From: a virus
IMG/VR virus record: IMGVR_UViG_3300009370_000166
Span: 1-23,839 of that record
Reading direction: 5' to 3' (one strand)
Length of the DNA: 23,839 nucleotides
The position numbers and the translations under genes are program-made. Shown here in pieces: positions 2,850 to 21,646 of the stretch. The notes below the pieces were generated by a model, which worked only from the letters and a program-made list of their open reading frames with translations, did not search any database and had not been told where the DNA came from. How positions within the stretch are numbered: the first letter of the stretch is position 1; each line of letters starts with the position of its first letter.

Positions 2850-4310
2850 CTATCTCTTTTTTCGTATGGCAGACATTTTCCAAGCCACATCAGCCATCTT
2901 TTTAATTGGTAGTTTTTCAAATTTCTTTCTATTGGATGAATTGAGTACGTCCCAAACTTTTAAAATAAGATTGGCTGTATTCATATCGACTAAATACCCA
3001 TCAATCTTTTTATGTTGTTTCTTTCTTACGATATGTGCAAGTGTAGTTCTTATCTGATTCCAAGATTCGTTTATATCACTTTTACCAGTAAGTTCATACC
3101 CCAATTGTTCTGCATTTTCCTTTCTTGCCTTTTCAAATTTCTTTTTATCACTTCCTTTTAACTCCCCACCAAATCCTTCGGCATAAAATCCTATTTTTTC
3201 ATATTCTTTTCTTACAGTTGGTTTATCTATGATGATAAGACTTTTTCCAGATGTTTTGTGTTTGACTTTTACTGTTTTACCTTTTTTATATGTAAGTCCT
3301 AAATCTGATTCTTTTATATGAGGATTCTTCTGTTGTCCTTTATTCCAACTATCAACTAACTTAATAAATGGAATAACTTGCTTCTTAAAAGCTTTCATAA
3401 TAATTTTTTGGTCTGATGGAATACCACTTATCTTAGTCATACTTTTAGCTAAACCATTAACTGCAACTGTAAATTTTTGGAATGATTTTGAAAACTCCAT
3501 AGTTAAATTATTAGCATCTCTTTTTTGACCTTCATTTACGGATTCTTTAAATACTGGTAAACCTTTTTTCTTTTGACCAACATTTATTTTTTTAATAATA
3601 GATTTTTTCATTTTTTTCTCTTCAGGTGTTTTGAATTGAGTGTCAAAAACATATTGCATATATTTGTGATATTGTTCTGGATCCATTTTTTCATTTACGG
3701 ATTCGCCTTGCATCTTTTTGGCATACTTGAACAGTCTTTTATGATTTTTACCTATTTCTTCACCACCTCTGTAATCATTATAAAAACTAGCAACAATATC
3801 AGGTAAACTAGAACCTTTTTTGAATTTTGTTTTTAGAAATTTATCGACTTTATTAAAATCACTTATTTTTTTATGATTATAGTTTTTAAATTGTTTATCC
3901 ATTTGAGCATATAAAGCACGAAGTTTTGTTAAATCTTCATTTATACTGTATTCTTTAATAACCTCATCTAAAATATTATCAATCATTGGGTTAAAATCAG
4001 GACTCTCTTTTTTTAAACGACTCTTTTCTCTACGACCCCTATTTGTAGATTCCTTTTCAAATCCAGCAATCTTACCACCTTTATGTGATGCATCTTTACC
4101 ATCACCATTTCCATAAGTACCCTTTTTACGATTGTATTGATTTAATTCCGCTCTATATTTTTTTGCTTTGGTTGATGATTGAAACTTTTTGTATTCGTCT
4201 TTATAATCTCTTTCTGCAGCCTCATCCTTTTTTTCTTTTTCCCACTTATCAGCCATTTCAGGCTCATTAGCATGCATCCACCGCCTTTGCTTTTCCGATT
4301 TGAAGGGCAT
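2850..4310 (-). CDS. Modular head polyprotein candidate with four V/I-N-E linkers
   Basis: This 486-residue, Lys-rich protein lies directly downstream of the prohead protease, where scaffold or core proteins usually sit. The N-terminus (MPFKSEKQRRWMHANEPEMA) is a motif I have seen in many phage proteins of unknown role. The protein then divides at SINE125, SVNE207, SVNE260 and DINE415, with a weaker HIKE334. This gives segments 1-125, 126-207, 208-260, 261-415 and 416-486. Each segment looks like a small folded unit without catalytic motifs, and 336-380 resembles a short basic module (KKGKTVKVKHKTSGKS) recalled from other marine phage proteins. Cutting after these Glu residues by the gp21-type protease is inferred. 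The last six bases of the protease gene give a GGGGGGA ribosome binding site for its ATG. Confidence 0.88.
   Translation of the reverse strand: MPFKSEKQRRWMHANEPEMADKWEKEKKDEAAERDYKDEYKKFQSSTKAKKYRAELNQYNRKKGTYGNGDGKDASHKGGKIAGFEKESTNRGRREKSRLKKESPDFNPMIDNILDEVIKEYSINEDLTKLRALYAQMDKQFKNYNHKKISDFNKVDKFLKTKFKKGSSLPDIVASFYNDYRGGEEIGKNHKRLFKYAKKMQGESVNEKMDPEQYHKYMQYVFDTQFKTPEEKKMKKSIIKKINVGQKKKGLPVFKESVNEGQKRDANNLTMEFSKSFQKFTVAVNGLAKSMTKISGIPSDQKIIMKAFKKQVIPFIKLVDSWNKGQQKNPHIKESDLGLTYKKGKTVKVKHKTSGKSLIIIDKPTVRKEYEKIGFYAEGFGGELKGSDKKKFEKARKENAEQLGYELTGKSDINESWNQIRTTLAHIVRKKQHKKIDGYLVDMNTANLILKVWDVLNSSNRKKFEKLPIKKMADVAWKMSAIRKKR
3066..3077 (-). other. Candidate prohead-protease site DINE415
   Basis: Codons 412-415 encode D-I-N-E, followed by S-W-N-Q. 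Hydrophobic residue at P3 and Glu at P1 match the T4 gp21 rule. It separates the 71-residue C-terminal module from the rest. Confidence 0.4.
3531..3545 (-). repeat. 15-base exact repeat encoding ESVNE, copy 1
   Basis: GAATCCGTAAATGAA on the minus strand encodes residues 256-260 (ESVNE). Exactly the same 15 bases occur at 3690-3704 and at 12954-12968 in a different gene. The flanking bases differ. It marks a module boundary and a candidate protease site. Confidence 0.75.
3690..3704 (-). repeat. 15-base exact repeat encoding ESVNE, copy 2
   Basis: The same 15 bases encode residues 203-207 of the modular protein. Identical codons (TCC for Ser, GTA for Val) are used in all three copies although several synonymous codons are available. 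Confidence 0.75.
3936..3947 (-). other. Candidate prohead-protease site SINE125
   Basis: Codons 122-125 encode S-I-N-E, followed by DLTKL. It separates the charged N-terminal segment from the first compact module (126-207). Confidence 0.4.
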
Positions 4311-4311
4311 T

Positions 4312-4917
4312 TTATCCCCCCATTATGTCAGAAATAATCTGTTCTATTTTACTATACTTAGTAGTTTCTTTCCGAACACCCTCATTCACTGGTTTCATAA
4401 ATGCCCCGTGTGTAGATGGGTTGGATACGAAATCAAATGCAATCAATTCAAAATCAGGTTGAACCTCTACAGTATCTTCACCACCCTCTTTTTCATTTAC
4501 TGGTTCAACACTACCTAATCCTCTTGAACTAATTCCTAATTTAATTCCTGATTTAAATAATTCTTTCAATATATTACCAGCTGGTGTTGACAGTACTTCA
4601 ACCGTTCCCATCAAATCATCACCATTCCAATGCATTTCTACAACATTATGTGAAGCATTATTTAAATTTACAACCGAACTCTCTGGATGGTCAAGTTCCC
4701 CTAAAGCTCTCCTCTCTGTAACTTGTTCTTGCAAATATTTTGCAACTTCTTTTAACAACACATCTCTTGGATATACACGCCCATTTTGATTTTTAGATTC
4801 GGCTCTTTGTAATACACCCTTTACAATAAGCCTTCCATCATTCTTTTCCATAGACTCATGTATTTGAGTTGGTGAAATTTCAAATGGCCTTACATCTACT
4901 AATAATTGTCTACTCAT
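4312..4917 (-). CDS. 21: Prohead core protein protease, T4 gp21-like
   Basis: This 201-residue serine protease is the size expected of the T4 gp21 family (S77, herpesvirus-assemblin-like fold). It acts inside the prohead, degrading scaffold and trimming head proteins after Glu. Recognisable elements are the conserved start of the fold (GVLQRAESKNQNGRVYP, residues 34-50), the probable catalytic His77 in ELDHP, the probable nucleophile in GISSRG (Ser130/131), and the AFDFVSNPS segment (residues 160-168). The C-terminus carries two V-N-E sequences, EPVNE142 and KPVNE179, the latter 22 residues from the end. T4 gp21 cleaves itself, so these may be autocleavage sites. It lies downstream of the portal, as in T4, though with three genes in between. 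An AGGAT ribosome site precedes the ATG. Confidence 0.92.
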   Translation of the reverse strand: MSRQLLVDVRPFEISPTQIHESMEKNDGRLIVKGVLQRAESKNQNGRVYPRDVLLKEVAKYLQEQVTERRALGELDHPESSVVNLNNASHNVVEMHWNGDDLMGTVEVLSTPAGNILKELFKSGIKLGISSRGLGSVEPVNEKEGGEDTVEVQPDFELIAFDFVSNPSTHGAFMKPVNEGVRKETTKYSKIEQIISDIMGG

Positions 4918-6331: not shown

Positions 6332-8086
6332 TTAGTCTTCAATTATATTCTCTTCTGAGAGTAAATCTGGGTTATCAAATGGTATTTTTTGTGGAAATTT
6401 GTCTTTTAATAGTGAAAGCATACCTTCCCTTGCAACAACTGTAGAAGCTTTTGATTGAGCTAATGGAGATTTACCTTTAAACTCTCTTTTACCAAAACTT
6501 CGGTGTCTTTTTTGAACTTTACCATCATCTTCTCTTGGTTCATCTTTACCAAAATATTCTTTCTCACTTCCACCCCAATCATCAGGTCTTGCCATCTCAT
6601 CGTCTTCATCTGATGATTCTACTGGTTGTACAGCAGGATCCTGACCCTCAGTTTCAATTTGTTCCATTCTAAATTTCTGTTTCGTATCTTCGATTATGTT
6701 AGCAAATATTTCAGCCTTTTTGTCATCACTAAAATCAAATATATTTTGATAAATCCAATCACGACTAAATAATTTAATATCCATTGCTTTTTCTGCAGCT
6801 TCTAATCTTTGATTCATTAGTTCAAGTTTTTCTTGTTCGTGAATCATTGATGGATTCTGTAATTCCAACTCAAAATCAATTAATGATTCATCAGCAAATC
6901 CTTGAGTATAAAGATGTACAATACCTATCTTCATCAATTCACTAACAATTATCTTCTGTAACCTCTCAACGGTACGAGCAAAACGAACATCTTCAGCAGC
7001 CAATGTAGCTTTACCACCACTTAATCCCTCTTCATATCCTAAAAAAGCTTTTGGAATTCTAAGAGCAGCCATCATTTTATTTCTCAAATATTCTACATCT
7101 TCTATTTGATCATTATTAGATAAACCTGGAAGAGTTTCAATTTCTGTTCCACTATCACTACCACGAACTGGTAAGAAATAATCTTCTGTTACACTTTCCA
7201 TATTATATTTTAAATTATACTCACCTGTTTTCTGATCAATAACAGGAACTTTTTTCATCTTATTGATAATTTTATGCATAAATTGTTCGACTTCTCTTGG
7301 TGGTATATTTCCAACATCAATTTTAAATATTCGTTTTTCTGGTGCTCTCATAATACGATGAATTAACATAGCATCTTCCATCAAAATCAATTGTTTAAAA
7401 ATGCGTCTAGCACCCTCAAGCATAGACTTACCATAAGGTAAAAAATTTGAATCTGATAATAATCTAAAATGTGCTACTTCATAATTTTCTAAAAGTTCTT
7501 TTCTATCTTGCTCAAGTTCAAATTGTATTAATTGTGGATTTTCTGGATCATGATCTTCAAGTCTAATAACATCATAACTAGAAAGAGGTTTAATATTAAC
7601 CACACCATATTTATCAACAATTTCTAAATGAAGATAAAAATCTCCATATTTAGTTAAATTACGAATCCAACTCCATAAATTGAATTCTATATTCATTATA
7701 TCGTAATATAAATTATGAAGAATTTTTTGAACCTGTGTATTATTAGTTCTTATTTTTAATATATCCCCTTCAATATTATCAATAGTACATTCATCACTAT
7801 AAATGTCTAAAGCTGAAGAAATAATTGGATCTTGATCCATAAATTCATAATCTTTAAATAAATCATGTTTTAAAACTTCATAATTAGCTCTTTGATTCTG
7901 TGCCGAACCATACGGTGTATTATATGTTTTTTGTACTAACCTATCATATCTATCTATAAAATTTGAAGAAAAAGATTTTTGTGAATGATCTAAATCCCTT
8001 ACAACAATTTTATCATCATCAGTTTTTCTTAAAATTATACTAGATTGAAATAATCTACCTAATCTTGTAAAAATATTATCTGCCAT
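6332..8086 (-). CDS. 20: Portal vertex protein, T4 gp20-like
   Basis: This 584-residue protein forms the dodecameric portal through which DNA enters and leaves the head and which nucleates prohead assembly. It shows the gp20-type layout: an N-terminal segment with YNTPYGSAQNQRANYEVLKHD and DQDPIISSALDIYSDECT (about residues 55-100), a central alpha/beta body, and the conserved stretch around LRIPKAFLGYEEGLSGGKATL (about 342-362), with SGGKATLAAEDVRFARTVER typical of these portals. The acidic, low-complexity tail (about 490-584) is likely flexible. It is slightly longer than T4 gp20 (524). It follows the terminase gene by three bases, with GGGGT at the end of that gene as ribosome site. Confidence 0.95.
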   Translation of the reverse strand: MADNIFTRLGRLFQSSIILRKTDDDKIVVRDLDHSQKSFSSNFIDRYDRLVQKTYNTPYGSAQNQRANYEVLKHDLFKDYEFMDQDPIISSALDIYSDECTIDNIEGDILKIRTNNTQVQKILHNLYYDIMNIEFNLWSWIRNLTKYGDFYLHLEIVDKYGVVNIKPLSSYDVIRLEDHDPENPQLIQFELEQDRKELLENYEVAHFRLLSDSNFLPYGKSMLEGARRIFKQLILMEDAMLIHRIMRAPEKRIFKIDVGNIPPREVEQFMHKIINKMKKVPVIDQKTGEYNLKYNMESVTEDYFLPVRGSDSGTEIETLPGLSNNDQIEDVEYLRNKMMAALRIPKAFLGYEEGLSGGKATLAAEDVRFARTVERLQKIIVSELMKIGIVHLYTQGFADESLIDFELELQNPSMIHEQEKLELMNQRLEAAEKAMDIKLFSRDWIYQNIFDFSDDKKAEIFANIIEDTKQKFRMEQIETEGQDPAVQPVESSDEDDEMARPDDWGGSEKEYFGKDEPREDDGKVQKRHRSFGKREFKGKSPLAQSKASTVVAREGMLSLLKDKFPQKIPFDNPDLLSEENIIED

Positions 8087-8089
8087 TTT

Positions 8090-9667
8090 TTACCCCAATA
8101 ACCAACTTAAGTCTTCTTTTTCACCTCTTATGTCCATTTCCCAAGGATTGTCTTTAGGTTTATTTGGTGTCATAATAGGTGTTCTCTCATTTAAATTTCC
8201 AATTGAATCCACTATACTACTCTGTAATTCATTTCTCTCTGATTGTATACGAATAGCAGTATCCCTTATCCATAATAATATAGAATAAGACATCACTAAA
8301 TCATCATTATACCCTTCAAGAGCTTCCATCTTTGTGTTCTTATATATAAATACAAAAAGTTCGTCAATTAATCGTGTTGACTTCAACTTAACCATCTTCT
8401 CACGAGTGTATTCTTCCATTTTTGCCACAATCAAAGGTTTAGATTTCATTGTAGTAGTAAAGCCAGGAACTTTATTTCTATCAATACTTCGATATCGATT
8501 TGTATGATGATTATCTTCATCAACAACCAAATGATTCTTTTCTTGATAAAAGAGATTTTCATATCCCCTATCGATAATTGTCTGTAGAGTAGCCCAACCA
8601 ATGTTGTTATTCTCCACTACCAATAGAGCATCGTTATATTTAGTAGCCAATTCAATTAAAAAATTACCAAATTCTGTAGTACCCAATTGTCCTTTATATT
8701 CTGCCACTTGTTCCATATTCTCTAAATCAAAAACTTGAGCCGCACTATAATCAGTCCCATCACCACGAGCGACATCAGCACTTATTAAATATTGTTTTGA
8801 ATAATTAGGATAATCCCATATCCATAAATTTCTATCAAATCCACTTTTTTCTACTGGTTCACAACACATCTTTTCTTTATACCATTCTAATACTCTTGGA
8901 TCAACAACAGAACGACCAGAACTTAAAAAGTCAGCATCACATTCTTGAGATGCTTGTGTTGGACCCAAAATCTTAGTTTGTTCATCTCTCCAACTTTGGT
9001 CTCTTTCTGGATGTTCAGACCAATGTAATTTTATTGTTTCAAAACCATTCAATCCATCTTTTGCATCTAACCAAGTTCTATGAAACCAATTACCAACACC
9101 ATTAGGTGTTGAAATTGCCAAACATTTACCACCAGTAGCCAATGTTTGCTGAGCAGCAGTCCATATCGTATCAATTTTTTCAATAAAAGCTGCTTCATCT
9201 AATATCAATAAAGATAATGCCTCTGAACGACCAGCCGATTCAGTAGATGCCAATGCTTTTATTTGTGAACCATTTTTAAAAACTAATGATAATTTATTAT
9301 TTTCTATAATTTGTGTTTTCAACCAATTTGGTAAACCTTCATACATAATACGAACTTTAGTAACTAAATTTTTAGCAGTATCTTTTGTAGTGGCAATACA
9401 CAATACGTTCTTATCATTATGAAACAACATCATCCACAAAGAATAAGCAGCACTTAATGTTGAAATACCAAGTTGTCTTGATTTTAATACAACATTATAA
9501 TCACTTTCTAAATATTTTTTTAGCACATCTTTTTGAAAATCATATAATTTAAATTTAATCTTTCCGCGCTGTGGATGTTGAATAATACAATATTGATTAA
9601 TAAAATGTGCTGGATCCTGTACACATTTTAAGTATTGTTTTTTTATTGCTTGTTTTATGTTACTCAT
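8090..9667 (-). CDS. 17: Large terminase subunit (packaging ATPase and nuclease), T4 gp17-like
   Basis: This 525-residue protein powers DNA packaging and cuts the concatemer. The ATPase part shows KSRQLGIST (residues 62-70, the variant Walker A), LLILDEAAF (153-161, Walker B with Asp157 and Glu158) and ISTPNG (185-190, coupling motif III). The nuclease part shows the acidic cluster: Asp298 in ISADVARGDG, Glu352 in VVENNNIG, and Asp455/456 in YNDDLVMS. It is somewhat shorter than T4 gp17 (610). The ATG overlaps the upstream zinc-ribbon gene by four bases. Tail sheath and tube genes (18 and 19), which separate 17 from 20 in T4, are absent here. Confidence 0.96.
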   Translation of the reverse strand: MSNIKQAIKKQYLKCVQDPAHFINQYCIIQHPQRGKIKFKLYDFQKDVLKKYLESDYNVVLKSRQLGISTLSAAYSLWMMLFHNDKNVLCIATTKDTAKNLVTKVRIMYEGLPNWLKTQIIENNKLSLVFKNGSQIKALASTESAGRSEALSLLILDEAAFIEKIDTIWTAAQQTLATGGKCLAISTPNGVGNWFHRTWLDAKDGLNGFETIKLHWSEHPERDQSWRDEQTKILGPTQASQECDADFLSSGRSVVDPRVLEWYKEKMCCEPVEKSGFDRNLWIWDYPNYSKQYLISADVARGDGTDYSAAQVFDLENMEQVAEYKGQLGTTEFGNFLIELATKYNDALLVVENNNIGWATLQTIIDRGYENLFYQEKNHLVVDEDNHHTNRYRSIDRNKVPGFTTTMKSKPLIVAKMEEYTREKMVKLKSTRLIDELFVFIYKNTKMEALEGYNDDLVMSYSILLWIRDTAIRIQSERNELQSSIVDSIGNLNERTPIMTPNKPKDNPWEMDIRGEKEDLSWLLG

Positions 9668-10128
9668 TTTTTCATCTCATTATTAGCAAGAGCATTTGCA
9701 ACAGTCTTATCAAAACGTAAAGTTTTATTTTTCTCTAATAATTTCATCTCTTCTTCATAATCACTAAGAAAAGCTTCCCATCTTTTTTCTTCCATCTTAG
9801 TAACCCACTCATTCCATTCACCTTCTCTATGTAGGTTAGCTTCAAACTCCATTTGACACACTCTACATTTTCGAAATCTATCATAAGTTTGTTGATCGAG
9901 TGTTTTTAATATCAATTTTTCACAATCACTACATTTATCAAATCCTCTTGGTGGTATTTTGGTAATTTGTTTTCTTTTACCATTTTCTTTAACCCAAGTT
10001 CTATTATTATGGTCAACCCAAGTTTCACCTTCTTTTCTTTCATCTACAGATTTTCCTTCGTAACCAATCTGTACAGAACGATTATAAATTCCCTTTGCCA
10101 TTTTTTGTATTTTTTCTATATTACTCAT
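9664..10128 (-). CDS. Zinc-ribbon protein upstream of the large terminase
   Basis: This 154-residue, charged protein has two Cys pairs, Cys66/Cys69 (KCSDCE) and Cys88/Cys91 (KCRVCQ), 18 residues apart, suggesting a single zinc-binding ribbon. The N-terminal part (25-60) is polar and the C-terminal part (95-150) is helical and acidic-basic mixed. It lies between the 1366-residue protein and the terminase, overlapping both by four bases. T4-like phages place the small terminase (gp16) just before gp17, so a packaging partner is possible, but gp16 has no zinc ribbon. I recall similar small Cys-pair proteins near terminases in marine phages, with unknown role. Confidence 0.8.
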   Translation of the reverse strand: MSNIEKIQKMAKGIYNRSVQIGYEGKSVDERKEGETWVDHNNRTWVKENGKRKQITKIPPRGFDKCSDCEKLILKTLDQQTYDRFRKCRVCQMEFEANLHREGEWNEWVTKMEEKRWEAFLSDYEEEMKLLEKNKTLRFDKTVANALANNEMKK

Positions 10129-13100
10129 CTATCAAATGTCATCATACCAGTAATTTGATTAACTGGTGCAAATGCTCCTGTAAACTTATAAACCTTTCCA
10201 TTATACTTAAATACAATACCCTCACTAGGAATTATTGCATCCAAACCACCAATAGAATCTAACCTATCCAATTGTATCTTTAATTTATTTAACTTCTTTA
10301 AATCACCACCACTCTTTATAGCAGATATTGCGGATTTTACTTTTTTTCTAATAATTTGAACTGATTGTTCTGGATGTGCTGCTAACCAACCATCTATATT
10401 TTTCATTATCTCAGCACCAACTGCAAAAAATAATTCTTCAAATGGTTTCATATTATCCTTGACCATTTTAGCGTGATCATATTTATCGGTAGCCAATACC
10501 CACTCTAAAAATTTAGGATGTTTCTCTTTTAAATCTTTTTTCATATCATTTATTTTATATGACTTATCGAAGAATGCCCATCGTTTAGTCAACTTAACCA
10601 ATATCTCATTTGTTATTTTTGGATAATCAGTTTGATGTGCGCCATTCATTATCCACTCTTGCCAATACATTTGATGATATAAAGAAAGTGTATCATTATC
10701 TTTGAGTACATATTCATTTTGTAATTTTTTTAGTTTTCCTAAAAATTTAGCTTTCATTTTACCAAATTCTTGATGTTTGGGAACTGTCAAAAAATTAGGT
10801 TTCCCTATCTTATACTTTTTTTGTATATGTTGATTTACTTGCTTAATCATTCCCTGTAACATTCGTCCACTATCCCTAGCTTGCCCAATTGCACGGCCAC
10901 TATCATCATATTTCAATGCACCATGAAATATAATTTGAGTAACATCATAATTAATTACATTCTCACTCTTAGGCCACAATACTTCCAAATTCATCCATAT
11001 TGAACCTTGACCAAAAATTTTATCTTGTTGTTTTTTACTCAAACTACTAACTGCTTTTTGTAAATCATTAACTGCAAAAACAAAAGCATCTCTAATTCGA
11101 CCTCTACCTGCAAATTTAGATGCAACACCCTTCACACTCAAAGCAGTTTTTCCTTTATTTTTTAAATGTCCTTTATTGCGAGCAGTAATTAATTTACCGT
11201 TCTTCCAACTTATCATAAGATTTTGTCCATCAAGTTTTTCCGTTACATTATCTTCACGATTTAACTCTCCACCTAAACCTCGTTCTATGATATTTTTTAA
11301 ATCTTTAAAAGTCAAATCTTTGTCATCGAATGGATGTGCCATATGTCCATAAGCCCCACCCTCAGTCAATATTTGTTCTTTATAAACAACTTTTAAATTA
11401 CCTTTGTCTATTTCTTTATCTCTATGTAATTTTTCCATTTCTGGTTTGTTAATTACAAGTTTTGGTTTTTCACTTGGTGTATTACTACCAACTGTCGGTA
11501 CGGCATAATAAGCTTTTCTAAACCCAAACTTTTTAGCCGCTATATGTCCCTTACCACCATATTTTTTAACCAAATCTTTTTCTGCCTCTTCTCTTGAATA
11601 TCGAATCTTAATACCCCTACGCATTAATCTTTGTTTCCAAATCTTGACTTTCTTCGACACTTCTGCTAATGACTTTACTTCTTTTACAATTGAATAATCA
11701 TCGTGAGTTTCATCACCCCTATTGGCATCTGTTTCTTTTGGTTCTTCAGCATCAAGTTGTTTTGCCGTCTTTGGACTATCTTTAACAATAGCTTTTCTTT
11801 CCTTAGCCATAGTGTCAACATATTCATATTCTTGATTTCTTAAAATCATATCAATATGATCTAACCATTTGTTCCATAATTCAGTACCAACGTAATCTGT
11901 TAAATTTTGAGCACTTGGTTCTTGAACTCCAGCTGGACCAAATGAAACGGAATCTACTGGTCCTTTTGGATATTCTGTATCTTTAACAAAACTAAAATCT
12001 TGACTATAATAATACTCATCATCAATTAATTCTTTCGCAAGGTCCCAACCCAATTTTCCAGCCTCTAATTCAGCTCTATTACGATATGATTTTAAACTTG
12101 ATATAAAACTTGGACCATCATCAACCTCACCAGCTGTATTTAAATTTGTGTTTTCGAATAAATGTGTATAAAATTCAAACAACTTTTTAAATTTATTCGT
12201 CATCATATTATACACACCTTTATCATAATATCCAAAAGCTTTTTTAAATAATTTTGGTCTTTCTTTAGAATCAAATTCAGGTGAACCTAAAAGTTGTCTC
12301 ATTACAGTTCCACTCACTTCTTTACCACCCACATTCACAGAAACATGTGGTGCTGTCATTATATATCCGTGCTCTTCATGCCCCTTTAAATTACCTTTAT
12401 TCTTTTTATAATCTTGATAATAAGTTTTTCCACCACTTTTCTTTGTTCCTCCAGCTAATCTTCCAGCATCTTTCTTTCCGAAAATATAAATAACTGCTGT
12501 AGTATCTTTGTCGTATTTTTTCAAAGTATTTTTTGCTACATAAGGTATTTTTTCTTTTACAATACGATTTGCTGGAACACCCATTTTAACCATATGTCGA
12601 ACTTTCTCTTTATAATTCATTGGATGTCTTGGTGGTTTTTTTATATCAGTTGTGGTTATGTAAGCTTCATCAACTTGTGCTTCTAACCACTTAAATGTTT
12701 TTAAATGATGAGGACCAAATGGTTGAAATCTTCCACCGTATATTCCAATGACTTTTTTGATTTTACTCTTTTCTTCAAATAAATCACCTACATCTTTTTT
12801 ATATGTTTGAATAAGTTGATATTTACTTTTTGGATCTTTCTTTCTAGCTTTTTTCAATTCACTACGAGCAGCACTTTTAGAACCTTTAAATTGAACTATC
12901 TTCTTTCCTTTTACTACTTTATAAAATCCATATGCCTTTGATGGTTGTATAACTTCATTTACGGATTCATTTCCCATCGGAACAACCCAATGAATATTAG
13001 CTTTATCTAACCTATCAAGTACTTTCATAATTTTACCATAACCACCAGCAACATTATAAAATCCAGCTTCCTTACCACTACCTTTAAGTTTCTTAATTTT

Positions 13101-14225
13101 ATCGAATTTAAAATTCTTATCAAAGTAATGATACAGAAGTTTATTTACTTTAGGTATGTCTTTTCTAAATACCCAAAATCTTTTAATTTTAGCTTCATTG
13201 ACTTTTTTATATCCACTCATTGAATTAGTTTTATTCTTTTTAACTTTCTTTCTTGATGGACTTCCTTGAATTACACCATCACCACCAACAATCCCCTCTT
13301 CATCAAATATATTAACTCTTTTATGAATTCTAAATGTAGCAGCCTTTCTTCCATTTATTGTTGGCATTCCATGTTTATCTTTTCCTATATTTTTAATCTT
13401 CATTTTTTTATTCTTAAACTTACCTACTAATATAGTATCGCCAACTTTTACTGGAATCTTTATATCCTCTTTCATTATCTTTTGTTTTTCAATCCATTTT
13501 TTGCCAAGATGATTTTTTACAGGTTTTTTAATGAATTTACCAATTCCTTTTGTAACCAACATATTAAATTTTTTGGTTGCTTGTTTTTCATCTAAAGTTT
13601 TAGAGTTATCAACCATCAGATAATTAGCATTTCCAAATAATCCTTGAAATGAAATTAAATTTTTCTGAACATCCTTCCAACTTTTCTCTACTAACTCAGG
13701 ACTTAACTTTCTTGGTCTTTCCATATTTCGTTTTTGTGCTACATCTAAATCAGTATGAACGAACACCATAAAAGTATCATAACCAATATCTTCTAATTCT
13801 TTCTTTTGTTCTTTTATTTTTCCGTATTTATGACCAGTACCATCAATAATCAAACCGAGTCTACCATTCATATAAAGTTTTTTCTGTTGAGCCGTTATAT
13901 CTTTTGCATAACTTCTCAACCCACTATAATCATCATAAGTAGGATCAGTCAATTGTCTAAATAATTCTTCTGGCATATCATCTAAATCTGTACCGAATCC
14001 ATATTTCTTCAATAATGTCGTAAGTGCTTTATCTTGATTGACTACCTTTAATCCATATGCCGATACAGTAGTTGTATCGGGTATTCCAAATAATCCCTTA
14101 GAAACGTATCCTTTACCACTTCCAGGTCCACCAGCAAGAAATATAGCTTTTAAAATACCAGGATCATTGATACCTTCTTCTATTATTGGTTTAGTTATTT
14201 CTTCTACTAATTTCTGTAAACTCAT
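10125..14225 (-). CDS. 1366-residue multidomain protein: P-loop kinase, small modules, cytidylyltransferase-like, ATP-dependent ligase-like
   Basis: Order: residues 20-250, P-loop kinase (zeta-toxin/polynucleotide-kinase type) with Walker A GGPGSGKG (32-39) and IIDGTGHK (126-133); 254-305, a short beta-rich module (KVGDTILVGKFKNKKMKIKN); 345-424, an 80-residue module; 425-484, a further small module; 490-660, a nucleotidyltransferase-like domain with GRFQPFGPHH (498-507) and SGTVMR (638-643); 700-950, a charged helical region; 956-1366, a ligase-like domain with EKLDG (nucleophile Lys997), MNLEVLW (1078-1084) and EGIVFKYNGKVYKF (1335-1348). KVNE344, ESVNE424 and ILTE955 lie at module borders and fit prohead-protease rules. 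ILTE resembles the FLTE cut in T4 gp23. RNA or nucleotide repair is the likely chemistry. It is translationally coupled to the Nudix gene (ATGA). Confidence 0.9.
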   Translation of the reverse strand: MSLQKLVEEITKPIIEEGINDPGILKAIFLAGGPGSGKGYVSKGLFGIPDTTTVSAYGLKVVNQDKALTTLLKKYGFGTDLDDMPEELFRQLTDPTYDDYSGLRSYAKDITAQQKKLYMNGRLGLIIDGTGHKYGKIKEQKKELEDIGYDTFMVFVHTDLDVAQKRNMERPRKLSPELVEKSWKDVQKNLISFQGLFGNANYLMVDNSKTLDEKQATKKFNMLVTKGIGKFIKKPVKNHLGKKWIEKQKIMKEDIKIPVKVGDTILVGKFKNKKMKIKNIGKDKHGMPTINGRKAATFRIHKRVNIFDEEGIVGGDGVIQGSPSRKKVKKNKTNSMSGYKKVNEAKIKRFWVFRKDIPKVNKLLYHYFDKNFKFDKIKKLKGSGKEAGFYNVAGGYGKIMKVLDRLDKANIHWVVPMGNESVNEVIQPSKAYGFYKVVKGKKIVQFKGSKSAARSELKKARKKDPKSKYQLIQTYKKDVGDLFEEKSKIKKVIGIYGGRFQPFGPHHLKTFKWLEAQVDEAYITTTDIKKPPRHPMNYKEKVRHMVKMGVPANRIVKEKIPYVAKNTLKKYDKDTTAVIYIFGKKDAGRLAGGTKKSGGKTYYQDYKKNKGNLKGHEEHGYIMTAPHVSVNVGGKEVSGTVMRQLLGSPEFDSKERPKLFKKAFGYYDKGVYNMMTNKFKKLFEFYTHLFENTNLNTAGEVDDGPSFISSLKSYRNRAELEAGKLGWDLAKELIDDEYYYSQDFSFVKDTEYPKGPVDSVSFGPAGVQEPSAQNLTDYVGTELWNKWLDHIDMILRNQEYEYVDTMAKERKAIVKDSPKTAKQLDAEEPKETDANRGDETHDDYSIVKEVKSLAEVSKKVKIWKQRLMRRGIKIRYSREEAEKDLVKKYGGKGHIAAKKFGFRKAYYAVPTVGSNTPSEKPKLVINKPEMEKLHRDKEIDKGNLKVVYKEQILTEGGAYGHMAHPFDDKDLTFKDLKNIIERGLGGELNREDNVTEKLDGQNLMISWKNGKLITARNKGHLKNKGKTALSVKGVASKFAGRGRIRDAFVFAVNDLQKAVSSLSKKQQDKIFGQGSIWMNLEVLWPKSENVINYDVTQIIFHGALKYDDSGRAIGQARDSGRMLQGMIKQVNQHIQKKYKIGKPNFLTVPKHQEFGKMKAKFLGKLKKLQNEYVLKDNDTLSLYHQMYWQEWIMNGAHQTDYPKITNEILVKLTKRWAFFDKSYKINDMKKDLKEKHPKFLEWVLATDKYDHAKMVKDNMKPFEELFFAVGAEIMKNIDGWLAAHPEQSVQIIRKKVKSAISAIKSGGDLKKLNKLKIQLDRLDSIGGLDAIIPSEGIVFKYNGKVYKFTGAFAPVNQITGMMTFDR
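11361..11372 (-). other. Candidate prohead-protease site ILTE955
   Basis: Codons 952-955 encode I-L-T-E followed by GGAYGHMAHP, exactly at the start of the ligase-like domain. T4 gp23 is cut at FLTE before Ala. Release of a separate ligase of about 411 residues is predicted. Confidence 0.4.
12954..12968 (-). repeat. 15-base exact repeat encoding ESVNE, copy 3
   Basis: Residues 420-424 of the 1366-residue protein are encoded by the same 15 bases as in the modular protein at 3531 and 3690, about 9 kb away. Confidence 0.75.
13194..13205 (-). other. Candidate prohead-protease site KVNE344
   Basis: Codons 341-344 encode K-V-N-E followed by AKIKRFW. Together with ESVNE424 it frames a compact 80-residue module. 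Confidence 0.4.
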
Positions 14226-14650
14226 GCCTTTAATTCCAAAGAATAACGCATACCTTTTTCAATTGGATATGGTAATGAATCAACATCATAATAACCATAA
14301 TCAGAATGTTCTTTATCAAGTTCAGGTTTGGGTTTATTTGGTAATTCAATCATATATAACTTTACAATTCTATTATATTTAGAATCTTTTATTGTATCTA
14401 AATATACTAAAGAATTGATGTCAATGTCAAGCTTTGTTTCTTCTTGAAACTCTCTATGAGCACCTTGAATGAACTTTTCTCCACTCTCAACATGCCCCAT
14501 TGGAACTGCCCAAAAGTTAGGATATTTTCCTGCATTTTCTGATCTTTTTGTTAATAAAACCTTATCTTCTGATTTAACCACAACTCCACCAATTTTTTTT
14601 GGTGACTTAACATCAAATTCAAGTAAATCAATTAATTTTGGTATAGACAT
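14222..14650 (-). CDS. Nudix hydrolase
   Basis: This 142-residue protein hydrolyses nucleoside diphosphates linked to other groups; the substrate cannot be told. The Nudix box runs from Gly52 to Leu74 (GHVESGEKFIQGAHREF then QEETKL). Gly52, Glu58 and the REFQEE core (66-71) are all present, but the usual Gly near the end of the box is Lys73. The N-terminus is beta-rich (19-36) after a leader, MSIPKLIDLLE, that again ends in a hydrophobic-x-Glu, so it might also be a targeted protein. Its stop overlaps the start of the 1366-residue protein (ATGA), suggesting that both act on the same nucleotides, for example NAD-type or ADP-ribose compounds or capped RNA. Confidence 0.9.
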   Translation of the reverse strand: MSIPKLIDLLEFDVKSPKKIGGVVVKSEDKVLLTKRSENAGKYPNFWAVPMGHVESGEKFIQGAHREFQEETKLDIDINSLVYLDTIKDSKYNRIVKLYMIELPNKPKPELDKEHSDYGYYDVDSLPYPIEKGMRYSLELKA

Positions 14651-18986: not shown

Positions 18987-19685
18987 TTAGATAACCCTAT
19001 TAAATAATAATTGTGTTAAATTTCCCTCAGAGCCTAATTTTTCTTTTGGTAATATATTCATAGCTACACTGCTTCTTATTTTTCTTGTAGTATTTTCTTC
19101 AACAGAATGTGTAAACCAAGATGGAAAGAATATTAACGATCCTGGAGCAAAATTAAAACTAAATGAAGTCCAAGTATTTGGAATATCACTTCCATCTATT
19201 TGCAATACATCTATAGTATTTTGTTGATAAGAAACTGATGGTTTATGAAATGTTAATGAAGGTGTTTTTTCTTCAGAATGCCCATAAAAAAATACTCCAG
19301 ATATTACACTATTAGGATGAGTATGTGCAACATGCATTTGTCCAGGATGTTTATGAGAAACCCAAGTTTGTGAAAACTGCCACTCATCAACATCATATCC
19401 TAATAATGTATCATTATAATTTTTCGCTTCTTTTAATATATATTCTTTAAATTCAACACATTCTGGTTCATCCAATATATAACTATTCTTTGAATGAGTT
19501 CCATAATTTTTACTATCAGAAGTTTTATGATGATGATGAGTTTGTAAATCAAAGAAATTACAAACAACAGAATATTCTGGAGGCATCTCCAATGTCCGTA
19601 TTGGTATTGGAAAAACATTATAATCTTCTATATATAATTTATTAGAATCTTCTATAGATTCCTTTATCTTCTTATCTTTTTTCAC
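18987..19685 (-). CDS. Putative 2-oxoglutarate/Fe(II) oxygenase (TIGR02466-like), GTG start
   Basis: This 232-residue protein resembles the TIGR02466/PF13759 oxygenases. Metal ligands are likely among His118, His121 and His123 in HVAHTHPNSVISGVFFY (118-134), with distal His193 in FPSWFTHSV and the probable 2-oxoglutarate-binding Arg204 in RSSVAMN. The start is GTG at 19685, overlapping the upstream stop (GTGA), with AGGA eight bases before it. A run of four His at 50-53 is notable. The reaction would be hydroxylation of a protein or small molecule, using oxygen and 2-oxoglutarate. It shares its family with the next gene upstream, suggesting duplication with strong divergence. Confidence 0.85.
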   Translation of the reverse strand: MKKDKKIKESIEDSNKLYIEDYNVFPIPIRTLEMPPEYSVVCNFFDLQTHHHHKTSDSKNYGTHSKNSYILDEPECVEFKEYILKEAKNYNDTLLGYDVDEWQFSQTWVSHKHPGQMHVAHTHPNSVISGVFFYGHSEEKTPSLTFHKPSVSYQQNTIDVLQIDGSDIPNTWTSFSFNFAPGSLIFFPSWFTHSVEENTTRKIRSSVAMNILPKEKLGSEGNLTQLLFNRVI

Positions 19686-20326
19686 CTATTGGTTCCTACT
19701 TTTATTTCCTCATACCTCTTTCCTGTAACATCAAGAGGTAATACATAATTAATTGATAATACAATTCTATCTTTATCAGTTAAATTTTGACCAACACCAT
19801 GTTTTAACCAAGATGGAAATAATATAAAATTTCCTGTTTTTGGTACAATATTAAAATTGGTTGCTGTAAACTCTGATTTTCCTGTTCTATCTTTAAAATA
19901 ATATTCAGCACTATCACCTCTTTCTATAAAAAATTGTCCAACATCACCTTCGGCTTGAACATAATAAGCAGCTGATAAAAAACTTCCTTGATGATTATGA
20001 TATGCATTATAATTATATTTTGAATTTACTATAAACCAATAATTACCAATCATCAAATCAGAAACTTTAGTTTTTTCTGCACAATAATCATTTACAAATT
20101 CAGTTGATTCTTCAAGTAGATTTTTTAAATCATCAGCTAATGGTTCTAATACTTCATATGAATGTGAATGCCAACCACCTATATTTGACCTACCGATACC
20201 TTTTGGATCATGATCTTTTATTTTATTTACATATTCAGCTATACTTTCATTATCAATATTACTAATTTCACTTACCCAAATATGATTTGGAAATAAATCA
20301 ATTTCATCTACTTTAAAATCTAACAT
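19682..20326 (-). CDS. Putative 2-oxoglutarate/Fe(II) oxygenase (TIGR02466-like)
   Basis: This 214-residue protein shares the layout of its downstream neighbour: FPNHIWVSEI near the start (12-21), YHNHQGSFLSAAYYVQ with candidate ligands His110 and His112 (109-124), FPSWLKHGVGQN with distal His176, and DRIVLSIN with Arg187 for 2-oxoglutarate. This pattern is typical of the family common in T4-like cyanophages and other marine phages; substrates are not known to me. It starts at a TAATG junction with the upstream oxygenase, so the four genes are translated as a chain. Confidence 0.87.
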   Translation of the reverse strand: MLDFKVDEIDLFPNHIWVSEISNIDNESIAEYVNKIKDHDPKGIGRSNIGGWHSHSYEVLEPLADDLKNLLEESTEFVNDYCAEKTKVSDLMIGNYWFIVNSKYNYNAYHNHQGSFLSAAYYVQAEGDVGQFFIERGDSAEYYFKDRTGKSEFTATNFNIVPKTGNFILFPSWLKHGVGQNLTDKDRIVLSINYVLPLDVTGKRYEEIKVGTNR

Positions 20327-20958
20327 TATCTAAATGGCTCCCCACCTGTCCAAAAAACAAGTGCTCTTCTTTCACCCTTAGTTATTGGTGTTACTCTATG
20401 GAGATAAAAAGTTGGGAAAATCAATACATCTCCTTTTTCTCTTGGTAATGTAATAAAACCTTTATGACCACCATACCATACTTGAAAATCCCCACCTTCA
20501 TAATCATTTGGATCACTTAACTGTACAGTGCAAGCAAGCTTTCTATTATTAACTTTACCTTGACCTATATCCATATGCCAATCTAAATGTCCACCATCAG
20601 TAGGATAAATTACATAATGAAGATTATCTGTTATAGTCTGAATATCAAATTGGAAAATCTCTTTATTTGCCTGTAAAACTAAATCTAATAAAAATTTATA
20701 AACCCATTCAGAATGATCTACATATGGGACATACGCAATATCTCTATTATTTGTCTTTTCACTATCTGTATTTTCTCCATAACCAGTTTCACCTTTTTTT
20801 AAAACATAACGATTCAAAACAATCATTTTATGTGTTTTTTCAATTAACTCTTCTGTAAATACATCGTTAAAATAATAAAAATCACCAAAATCACAATTTA
20901 TTGGACTTGAAATAGTAGGTTTATACTGAATGGTGGGAGAATCAGTCATCTTTTTCAT
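20326..20958 (-). CDS. Prolyl-4-hydroxylase-like 2-oxoglutarate/Fe(II) oxygenase
   Basis: This 210-residue enzyme has a complete facial triad: His128 and Asp130 in GGHLDWHMDIG, and His187 in FPTFYLHRVTPI, with Arg197 in KGERRALVFW as the likely 2-oxoglutarate contact. The SDPNDYEGGDFQVW segment (148-161) is the usual core strand of P4H/PKHD-type enzymes. The protein is close to the length of small bacterial PKHD hydroxylases. It overlaps the upstream gene by 17 bases, and a second ATG at 20949 would leave an 8-base overlap; neither has a clear ribosome site. The substrate is unknown; a virion protein residue is an inferred possibility. Confidence 0.9.
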   Translation of the reverse strand: MKKMTDSPTIQYKPTISSPINCDFGDFYYFNDVFTEELIEKTHKMIVLNRYVLKKGETGYGENTDSEKTNNRDIAYVPYVDHSEWVYKFLLDLVLQANKEIFQFDIQTITDNLHYVIYPTDGGHLDWHMDIGQGKVNNRKLACTVQLSDPNDYEGGDFQVWYGGHKGFITLPREKGDVLIFPTFYLHRVTPITKGERRALVFWTGGEPFR

Positions 20959-21646
20959 CCATAATTATTAAATGACTACGTTCATCCACATAAAGTGTCG
21001 GCTTACTACCATCTTCGTATTCTATCGGAAGCATTCCTTCGAATCCAAACCATCCAGTAAGAACATATTTTGTTTCATTAGGAGCAACTATACCACGATG
21101 CATATGAGTAAAGTCAGCTGGCCACGCAACTAATTTTCCAGCCTCAGCCCGTTCAAAATGTTGTTGATAATAAAACTCGGTCTCACCACCCACTTCAACA
21201 TCATTTAAATATATCAACCAAGCATGAGTTCTATTATAAAATTGATTATTACAGCGTTCACAATGAAATACCTTATAACCTTCTTCAGGATTATATCTTT
21301 GTAAATTAAAAAAAGTACTTATTACAAATTTATCAATATTATCACAACCCACATACCAATATCTTTTATAATCCTCTATTGCCGATTCCAATACTGGAAT
21401 TATTTCTTCTTTAAGTATATCTCCCCAAATTGGATCATCGAGCATTTGCGGACCAAATGTCATATCAGTAGATTTTTTTATCTCATCTAAAGCTCCTGTG
21501 AATAGTCCTTCTTCATCTTCCGTTGAAGTTCTTCCAACCACACCATTATAATGTAAATCAGTGCTCTCTTCAAAAAGAGTTATTAATTTATCACAGACTT
21601 CTTTGCTTAATGCGTGTTCTCTTCTAAGAATAAAATCTGTAACCAT
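20942..21646 (-). CDS. Prolyl-4-hydroxylase-like oxygenase with an HxE metal motif
   Basis: This 234-residue protein follows the P4H layout: RYNPEEGYKVFHCERC (117-132), then LIYLNDVEVGGETEFYY (144-160), then WPADFTHMHRG (175-185) and ETKYVLTGWFGF (191-202). The ligands would be His128, Glu130 (instead of the usual Asp) and His183, with Lys193 binding 2-oxoglutarate as in prolyl hydroxylases. I recall HxE variants in other phage members, so activity is plausible. It is the first gene of the oxygenase chain, three bases after the preceding gene, with an AAAGAG ribosome site inside that gene's end. Confidence 0.88.
   Translation of the reverse strand: MVTDFILRREHALSKEVCDKLITLFEESTDLHYNGVVGRTSTEDEEGLFTGALDEIKKSTDMTFGPQMLDDPIWGDILKEEIIPVLESAIEDYKRYWYVGCDNIDKFVISTFFNLQRYNPEEGYKVFHCERCNNQFYNRTHAWLIYLNDVEVGGETEFYYQQHFERAEAGKLVAWPADFTHMHRGIVAPNETKYVLTGWFGFEGMLPIEYEDGSKPTLYVDERSHLIIMDEKDD

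Follow-up and report, generated by a model that had tools for sequence, protein, structure and literature searches.

A late-operon polyprotein of marine T4-like phages as candidate packaged cargo for RNA repair

Results

Organization of the polyprotein gene and its operon

A 23.8 kb virus record (IMG/VR record IMGVR_UViG_3300009370_000166, positions 1 to 23,839), here called the window, was analysed for a large open reading frame (ORF) encoding a protein of 1366 aa. The protein joins a polynucleotide-kinase-like, an NMNAT-like and an RNA-ligase-like domain with several small modules and is predicted to be a polyprotein, which would be cut by the phage's own prohead protease and packaged into the head. 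An earlier note on this DNA had placed the ORF at 10125-14225, and these borders are exact. The frame is open only on the minus strand, since the plus strand carries stops throughout, and the ORF call is backed by homologues.

The protein begins with MSLQKLVEEITKPIIEEG. Residues 1-17 (MSLQKLVEEITKPIIEE/G, the slash marking a predicted cut; 14175-14225, minus strand as for all modules) form a leader and candidate capsid-targeting sequence (CTS) with the sites LVE8 and IEE17. It is followed by the P-loop kinase (residues 18-253, P-loop GGPGSGKG at 32-39; 13467-14174) and by a small exchangeable module (residues 254-309, DIKIPVKVGDTILVG...; 13299-13466), which is N-terminal in other homologues. 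A short linker module ending in SGYKKVNE344 (13194-13298) and two small modules ending in ESVNE424 (residues 345-424; 12954-13193) and DLFE484 (residues 425-484; 12774-12953) lead to the NadM/NMNAT-like nucleotidyltransferase (residues 485-691, GGRFQPFGPHH ... SGTVMR; 12153-12773). Residues 692-955 (11361-12152) contain the sites VKE849, LAE855 and ILTE955, and the RNA-ligase-like nucleotidyltransferase takes up residues 956-1366 (K997 of motif I, R1016, E1081, E1335, K1347; 10128-11360).

The ORF shares 4 bp with each of its neighbours. Upstream lies a gene for a Nudix hydrolase with a leader-type N-terminus (14222-14650, minus strand); in all 27 related loci where a Nudix gene was found, it is located directly upstream of the polyprotein. 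The downstream gene (9664-10128) in turn overlaps the terminase gene (8090-9667), next to which follow the portal gene (6332-8086) and the gene for an S77 prohead protease (4312-4917, minus strand; PF03420, E 1e-32), a gp21 homologue and the predicted processor of the polyprotein. Because of this arrangement the ORF is assigned to a late head operon, and its position suggests late expression. PADLOC gave no match for the polyprotein.

Identity of the three enzymatic domains

The combination of P-loop kinase, nucleotidyltransferase-like and ligase-like domains with small modules in one chain, as described in the earlier note, was borne out by Pfam matches for the first two, by the K997-x-D-G motif and by fold matches. 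In the kinase domain Pfam detects Zeta_toxin and AAA_33, the former above cut-off, and profile searches match bacterial Pnkp and O-phosphoseryl-tRNA kinase (PSTK). In Foldseek, bacterial Pnkp ranks first (TM 0.6-0.7 on target), zeta toxin following closely. Alignment to T4 Pnkp (hhalign E 9e-7, probability 91%) covers the P-loop, NxD and RNxxR regions, and the Pnkp motif order P-loop, NxD, DxT, RNxxR is found among the invariants of the kinase alignment. Comparison thus supports a probable relationship of the kinase to T4 Pnkp. Residues 485-691 match CTP_transf_like in Pfam and NadM in PDB profiles, and the NadM-type motifs GGRFQPF[GH]xxH and SGTxxR are conserved across the NMNAT-like domains.

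For the C-terminal ligase-like domain no confident sequence match was obtained against Pfam or PDB chains. It carries KLDG at K997, followed by an invariant Arg, an invariant Glu, EGIVFK and YKFTG, the set to be expected in a covalent nucleotidyltransferase. In the family alignment, which includes isolate Mel-JY01, the invariant positions are K43, R62, E127, E381-G382-x-V384 and K393, which we take to be the ligase KxDG lysine, the Arg, the motif III Glu, the motif IV EGxV and the motif V Lys, respectively. Foldseek against the PDB returned Palaeococcus RNA ligase, T4 Rnl1, T4 Rnl2 and others, interspersed with CorA matches of low probability; the RNA-ligase matches reach a probability of 0.97, but with E 0.004-0.05 and TM of about 0.2-0.3. 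In BFVD, the matches outside the domain's own family are mostly viral RNA ligases, and PF09414 is weakly detected, below cut-off, in six of the nine ligase-like members. These data are consistent with a C-terminal nucleotidyltransferase of RNA-ligase-like fold. Profile matches to cyanophage DUF6267 (hhalign E 0.11) and to T4 Rnl1 were both non-significant, so no homology to either is claimed.

Protease-type sites at the module borders

KVNE344, ESVNE424 and ILTE955, previously noted as lying at borders, were confirmed at these residues, and further sites were found at IEE17/G, MKE253, FDE309, LFE484, LFE691, VKE849 and LAE855. Among the homologues, [VILM]xE lies within five residues of a sharp homology breakpoint in 57 of 96 cases for block starts and in 47 of 67 for block ends, compared to 12.9 and 9.2 for random positions. 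Pooled, 104 of 163 breakpoints fall on [LIVM]xE versus 22 expected, an enrichment of about fivefold. The control motif [VILM]xD is depleted at breakpoints (7 starts and 2 ends versus 14.1 and 9.8 expected), while [DKNQST]xE is mildly enriched (38 and 20 versus 17 and 12), more weakly than the aliphatic form.

With its varied upstream contexts, the start of the kinase offers the clearest test. Among its 72 distinct contexts, comprising 49 N-terminal leaders and 23 internal borders, P1 is Glu without exception and P3 is Leu, Ile or Val in 70 (Phe or Met in two), while P2 has an entropy of 3.1 bits, about the same as the flanks; since the loci are related, neither these nor the other site and start counts represent independent events. 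At the start of the NMNAT-like domain the site is present in 15 of 16 distinct contexts.

The same motif occurs in the presumed processing machinery. The S77 protease of the window has IHE/S near its N-terminus and PVNE/G near its C-terminus, and the proteases encoded in related loci have [IV]xE/S and mostly [VM]xE/[GS] at these places, with P2 variable. T4 gp21 is thought to process itself. In relatives, the major capsid protein shows LI[SD]E/[NS]S at the expected end of the propeptide. From this conservation we infer that the S77 protease would use an [LIV]xE motif. For T4 gp21 the motif is L/I-X-E, and the CTS comprises 10 residues (PMC9026906); the pattern at the kinase start agrees with this rule. 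Cleavage of the polyprotein at its module borders is strongly supported by the conserved sites, the cutting itself being predicted from them.

As a separate observation, a 486-aa protein encoded at 2850-4310 (minus strand) of the window has YSINE/D, GESVNE/K, KESVNE/G and DINE/S spaced along its length and resembles a second head polyprotein.

Two proposed routes to a free ligase

The conserved ligase start GG[AL]xGHM is preceded either by [LIV]xE (22 distinct contexts) or by LLLM (31), and no context has neither. LLLM is encoded by AAGGAG-TTATTATTA-ATG or near variants, that is, a Shine-Dalgarno sequence with an in-frame ATG. In this group the Lys codon is AAG in 47 of 47 cases and the Glu codon is GAG in 50 of 50, compared to 26% and 23% in the ORFs, and the following codons vary. 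Within the ORFs of the group AAGGAG-N5-10-ATG does not occur in frame at any other place. We read the LLLM-type start as a putative internal ribosome start used in a large sub-group. AAGGAGTTATTATTAATG could also be read as a pure +1 frameshift, but internal initiation is simpler and was preferred. As a predicted cleavage site or a putative internal start is always present, the free N-terminus of the ligase seems to be under selection.

Mosaic homologues

Homologues of 820-2463 aa were collected from 79 viral loci, in which common blocks are shuffled; later scans of viral contigs yielded at least 500 relatives each of the ligase and of the kinase. Isolates that encode such modules are HTVC008M, Melnitz, Mel-JY01 and Atu_ph07. 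Nearly all architectures contain the NMNAT. Some homologues additionally contain a block with a CCA-adding enzyme (PF01743, E 5e-31) and an HD domain. This block is internal to the polyprotein in loci L065 and L045 and forms its own gene with the leader MISLSNLIPLNE/ in L014; a separate-gene copy of the CCA block matches CCA enzymes in the PDB with E 5e-32.

Other modules were observed in one or two loci each. The polyproteins of L064 (9986-15088) and L061 contain a module with VIGTPHMS...GEGGQGDGHN...VLVVPGATHGSA and a faint TraB/ChaN (Tiki) likeness, and in those of L044 and L065 NMNAT and ligase are separated by a hydrophobic module (AAVTYMWTQMTFVGEPEYD) that may act on membranes. In L206 the kinase occurs twice, after a leader (LTE/G) and internally (LTE/A). 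In L091 (3254-5590; Atu_ph07 AUZ94865) a possible ADP-ribosyltransferase domain is followed by VTE/G and the kinase. This protein (gp53 if counted from AUZ94813) lies within the virion cluster of coding sequences 31-76, of which 29 products were detected by mass spectrometry.

Leaders and packaging

Leader-type N-termini are enriched in the related loci, with 25 genes at the N-terminus versus 4-11 in later sequence windows. The leader-like character of the polyprotein N-terminus, suggested earlier, held up in comparison with homologues: the leader ends in IIEE17/G, of the [LIV]xE type, and homologous leaders end alike.

The cytidylyltransferase T4-GC190 is present in purified virions of cyanophage S-SM1 (Sullivan et al. 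2010, PMC3037559), and the cytidylyltransferase S-SZBM1_140 was reported in 2022 from purified virions as the sole enzyme named in the virion list (PMC9146016). Their leaders read MKKFSAFLNE/A (S-SM1) and MRFRQFIIE/A (S-SZBM1), and in both phages a DUF6267 gene with KWDG adjoins the cytidylyltransferase gene. HTVC008M has a row of DUF6267, one gene, a kinase (MIPFILKE/G) and a cytidylyltransferase. Assignment of the cyanophage cytidylyltransferase to the family of the window NMNAT was tried and not retained, the profile match being weak, and the cyanophage proteomics is therefore evidence at the level of the superfamily only. By analogy with these leader-bearing enzymes, packaging of the polyprotein is supported indirectly.

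Two further regions of the window, both on the minus strand, may be mentioned. Small genes at 946-2099 have leader-like N-termini (MIKLKELLKE/, MIKLKELIKE/, MIKLSGLITE/) and are candidates for packaged internal proteins, and four successive genes at 18987-21646 resemble 2OG-Fe(II) oxygenases.

Discussion

With a probability of roughly 0.6, we consider the polyprotein to be cargo of the late head operon that is cut by the S77 protease, packaged and used to deliver RNA repair. Following the logic of the T4 CTS, the N-terminal leader would send the polyprotein to the prohead core, where the protease encoded in the same operon would cut behind the Glu of [LIV]-x-E wherever modules meet, releasing three enzymes inside the head (polynucleotide-kinase-like, NMNAT-like and RNA-ligase-like) together with several small modules. 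At infection the freed enzymes would exit the head together with the DNA and be active at once. Kinase and ligase may then mend RNA ends by healing and sealing, the most likely substrates being tRNAs cut by host nucleases, and the CCA-adding and HD phosphohydrolase modules of relatives may assist in this repair, while the NMNAT and the adjacent leader-bearing Nudix hydrolase may act on NAD or nucleotides. Phages would shuffle the modules at the protease sites, and in a large sub-group the internal translation start would release the ligase instead. Taken as a set, the kinase, ligase, CCA-adding and HD modules suit healing and sealing of RNA ends, and the NMNAT and Nudix enzymes suit repair of NAD or nucleotides; as a predicted function, delivered RNA repair is the best reading and NAD repair ranks second.

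Several points weigh against this reading. The fold of the kinase is also near to zeta toxin and PSTK. The ligase-like domain is without a significant sequence match to solved ligases, its structure model is moderate (pLDDT 70), and its PDB matches in Foldseek have E 0.004-0.05 and TM of about 0.2-0.3. The CCA and HD modules belong to relatives, the window being without them. Virion detection comes from cyanophage relatives only, not from this protein or its close homologues, and the detected enzyme is of the same superfamily as the window NMNAT, membership in the same family not being established (hhalign probability 35%). Moreover, [LIVMF]xE occurs 27 times in the whole protein and also inside folded domains, including VTE996 beside the ligase lysine. 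Single motif matches therefore carry little weight, the argument being built on conserved sites placed at borders, and cleavage specificity would need accessibility. Structure prediction of the borders had been proposed as a check in the earlier note; in the models, most of the predicted sites lie where confidence is low, with some exceptions. Overall, the interpretation given in that note is partly supported.

The cut and packaged polyprotein could alternatively be a kit for NAD and nucleotides directed against NAD-depleting defences, composed of NMNAT, Nudix and a small-molecule kinase, with a ligase-like enzyme whose substrate is not RNA. The NadM-like motifs, the leader-bearing Nudix gene upstream in 27 loci and the near-constant presence of the NMNAT speak for it. 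Nevertheless we regard it as unlikely: the kinase matches Pnkp and PSTK and not riboside kinases, the ligase fold matches mainly RNA ligases, and the CCA-adding and HD modules of relatives act on RNA ends. Less probable still, the protein would be a packaged polyvalent effector for host takeover, with a zeta-toxin-like or otherwise harmful kinase and further modules that modify host molecules. Zeta_toxin is above cut-off in Pfam, zeta-toxin structures are among the best matches and Iyer et al. (2017, PMC5512222) report fusions of zeta-like kinases with MuF domains of phages, but the T4 Pnkp profile match spans the whole kinase domain and the partner modules are repair-type enzymes. Finally, the protein could be a late multidomain enzyme of the ordinary kind that stays uncut, its border [LIV]xE reflecting linker composition or common linker ancestry. 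This would fit a short motif that is also present inside domains and the mild enrichment of [DKNQST]xE at breakpoints, but is very improbable given that unrelated upstream contexts keep P1 and P3 and let P2 and P4 vary, that [VILM]xD is depleted, that the termini of the protease bear the same motif and that an internal start would release the ligase where the site is missing.

For the packaged RNA repair cargo, the single elements, that is CTS, gp21, polyvalent proteins and phage tRNA repair, are known. Like the internal proteins and Alt of T4, which bear a CTS, undergo gp21 processing and are ejected, the polyprotein has a short leader ending in [LIV]xE, an S77 protease in the head operon and small leader-bearing genes nearby. 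In T4, however, these are separate proteins with leaders of their own, whereas here one leader precedes several enzymes with internal sites between them. T4 counters anticodon nucleases with Pnkp and Rnl1. The window protein resembles this pair in having a Pnkp-related kinase and a ligase-type nucleotidyltransferase; it differs in that the T4 enzymes come from separate genes and are made after infection, while the virion would already contain the enzymes in the present case, and in that it is without an HAD phosphatase. The clusters of T4-GC190 with DUF6267 and of HTVC008M have the same kinds of domains and several leader-like N-termini, with GC190 detected in virions, but as separate neighbouring genes and not as a polyprotein. 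The nearest concept is that of polyvalent proteins (Iyer et al. 2017, PMC5512222), phage proteins of large size and mosaic domain make-up that are predicted to enter the host along with the injected DNA, and at least two effector-type domains are indeed joined in one mosaic polypeptide. Since Pfam scans of the window polyprotein and its homologues revealed no embedded peptidase or MuF domain, it was not filed among them; in the present case cutting would fall to the prohead protease, a protein of its own, and kinase, ligase and CCA enzymes are part of the cargo. A polyprotein processed by a prohead protease and carrying RNA repair enzymes was not found described in the open literature, subscription papers and preprints being outside the search.

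In its widest form, the proposal is that the virions of marine T4-like phages bring in a complete pathway for the repair of RNA ends (5' kinase and ligase, in relatives also CCA-adding enzyme and HD phosphohydrolase) as a polyprotein processed by the prohead protease, which recombines at its cleavage sites, pre-empts tRNA-cutting defences and has an internal start in place of a lost site; for this we see about even odds. If it is true, a capsid maturation protease would double as a polyprotein processor for injected effectors, comparable to the proteases of RNA viruses. Phages would bring RNA repair ready-made and thereby bypass the translation of early genes, the step that tRNA-cutting defences block. 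With the [LIV]xE borders and leaders as a readable code, further packaged enzymes could be sought across hundreds of marine viral contigs, and the old question of what the head cargo of T4-like phages does would become directly testable.
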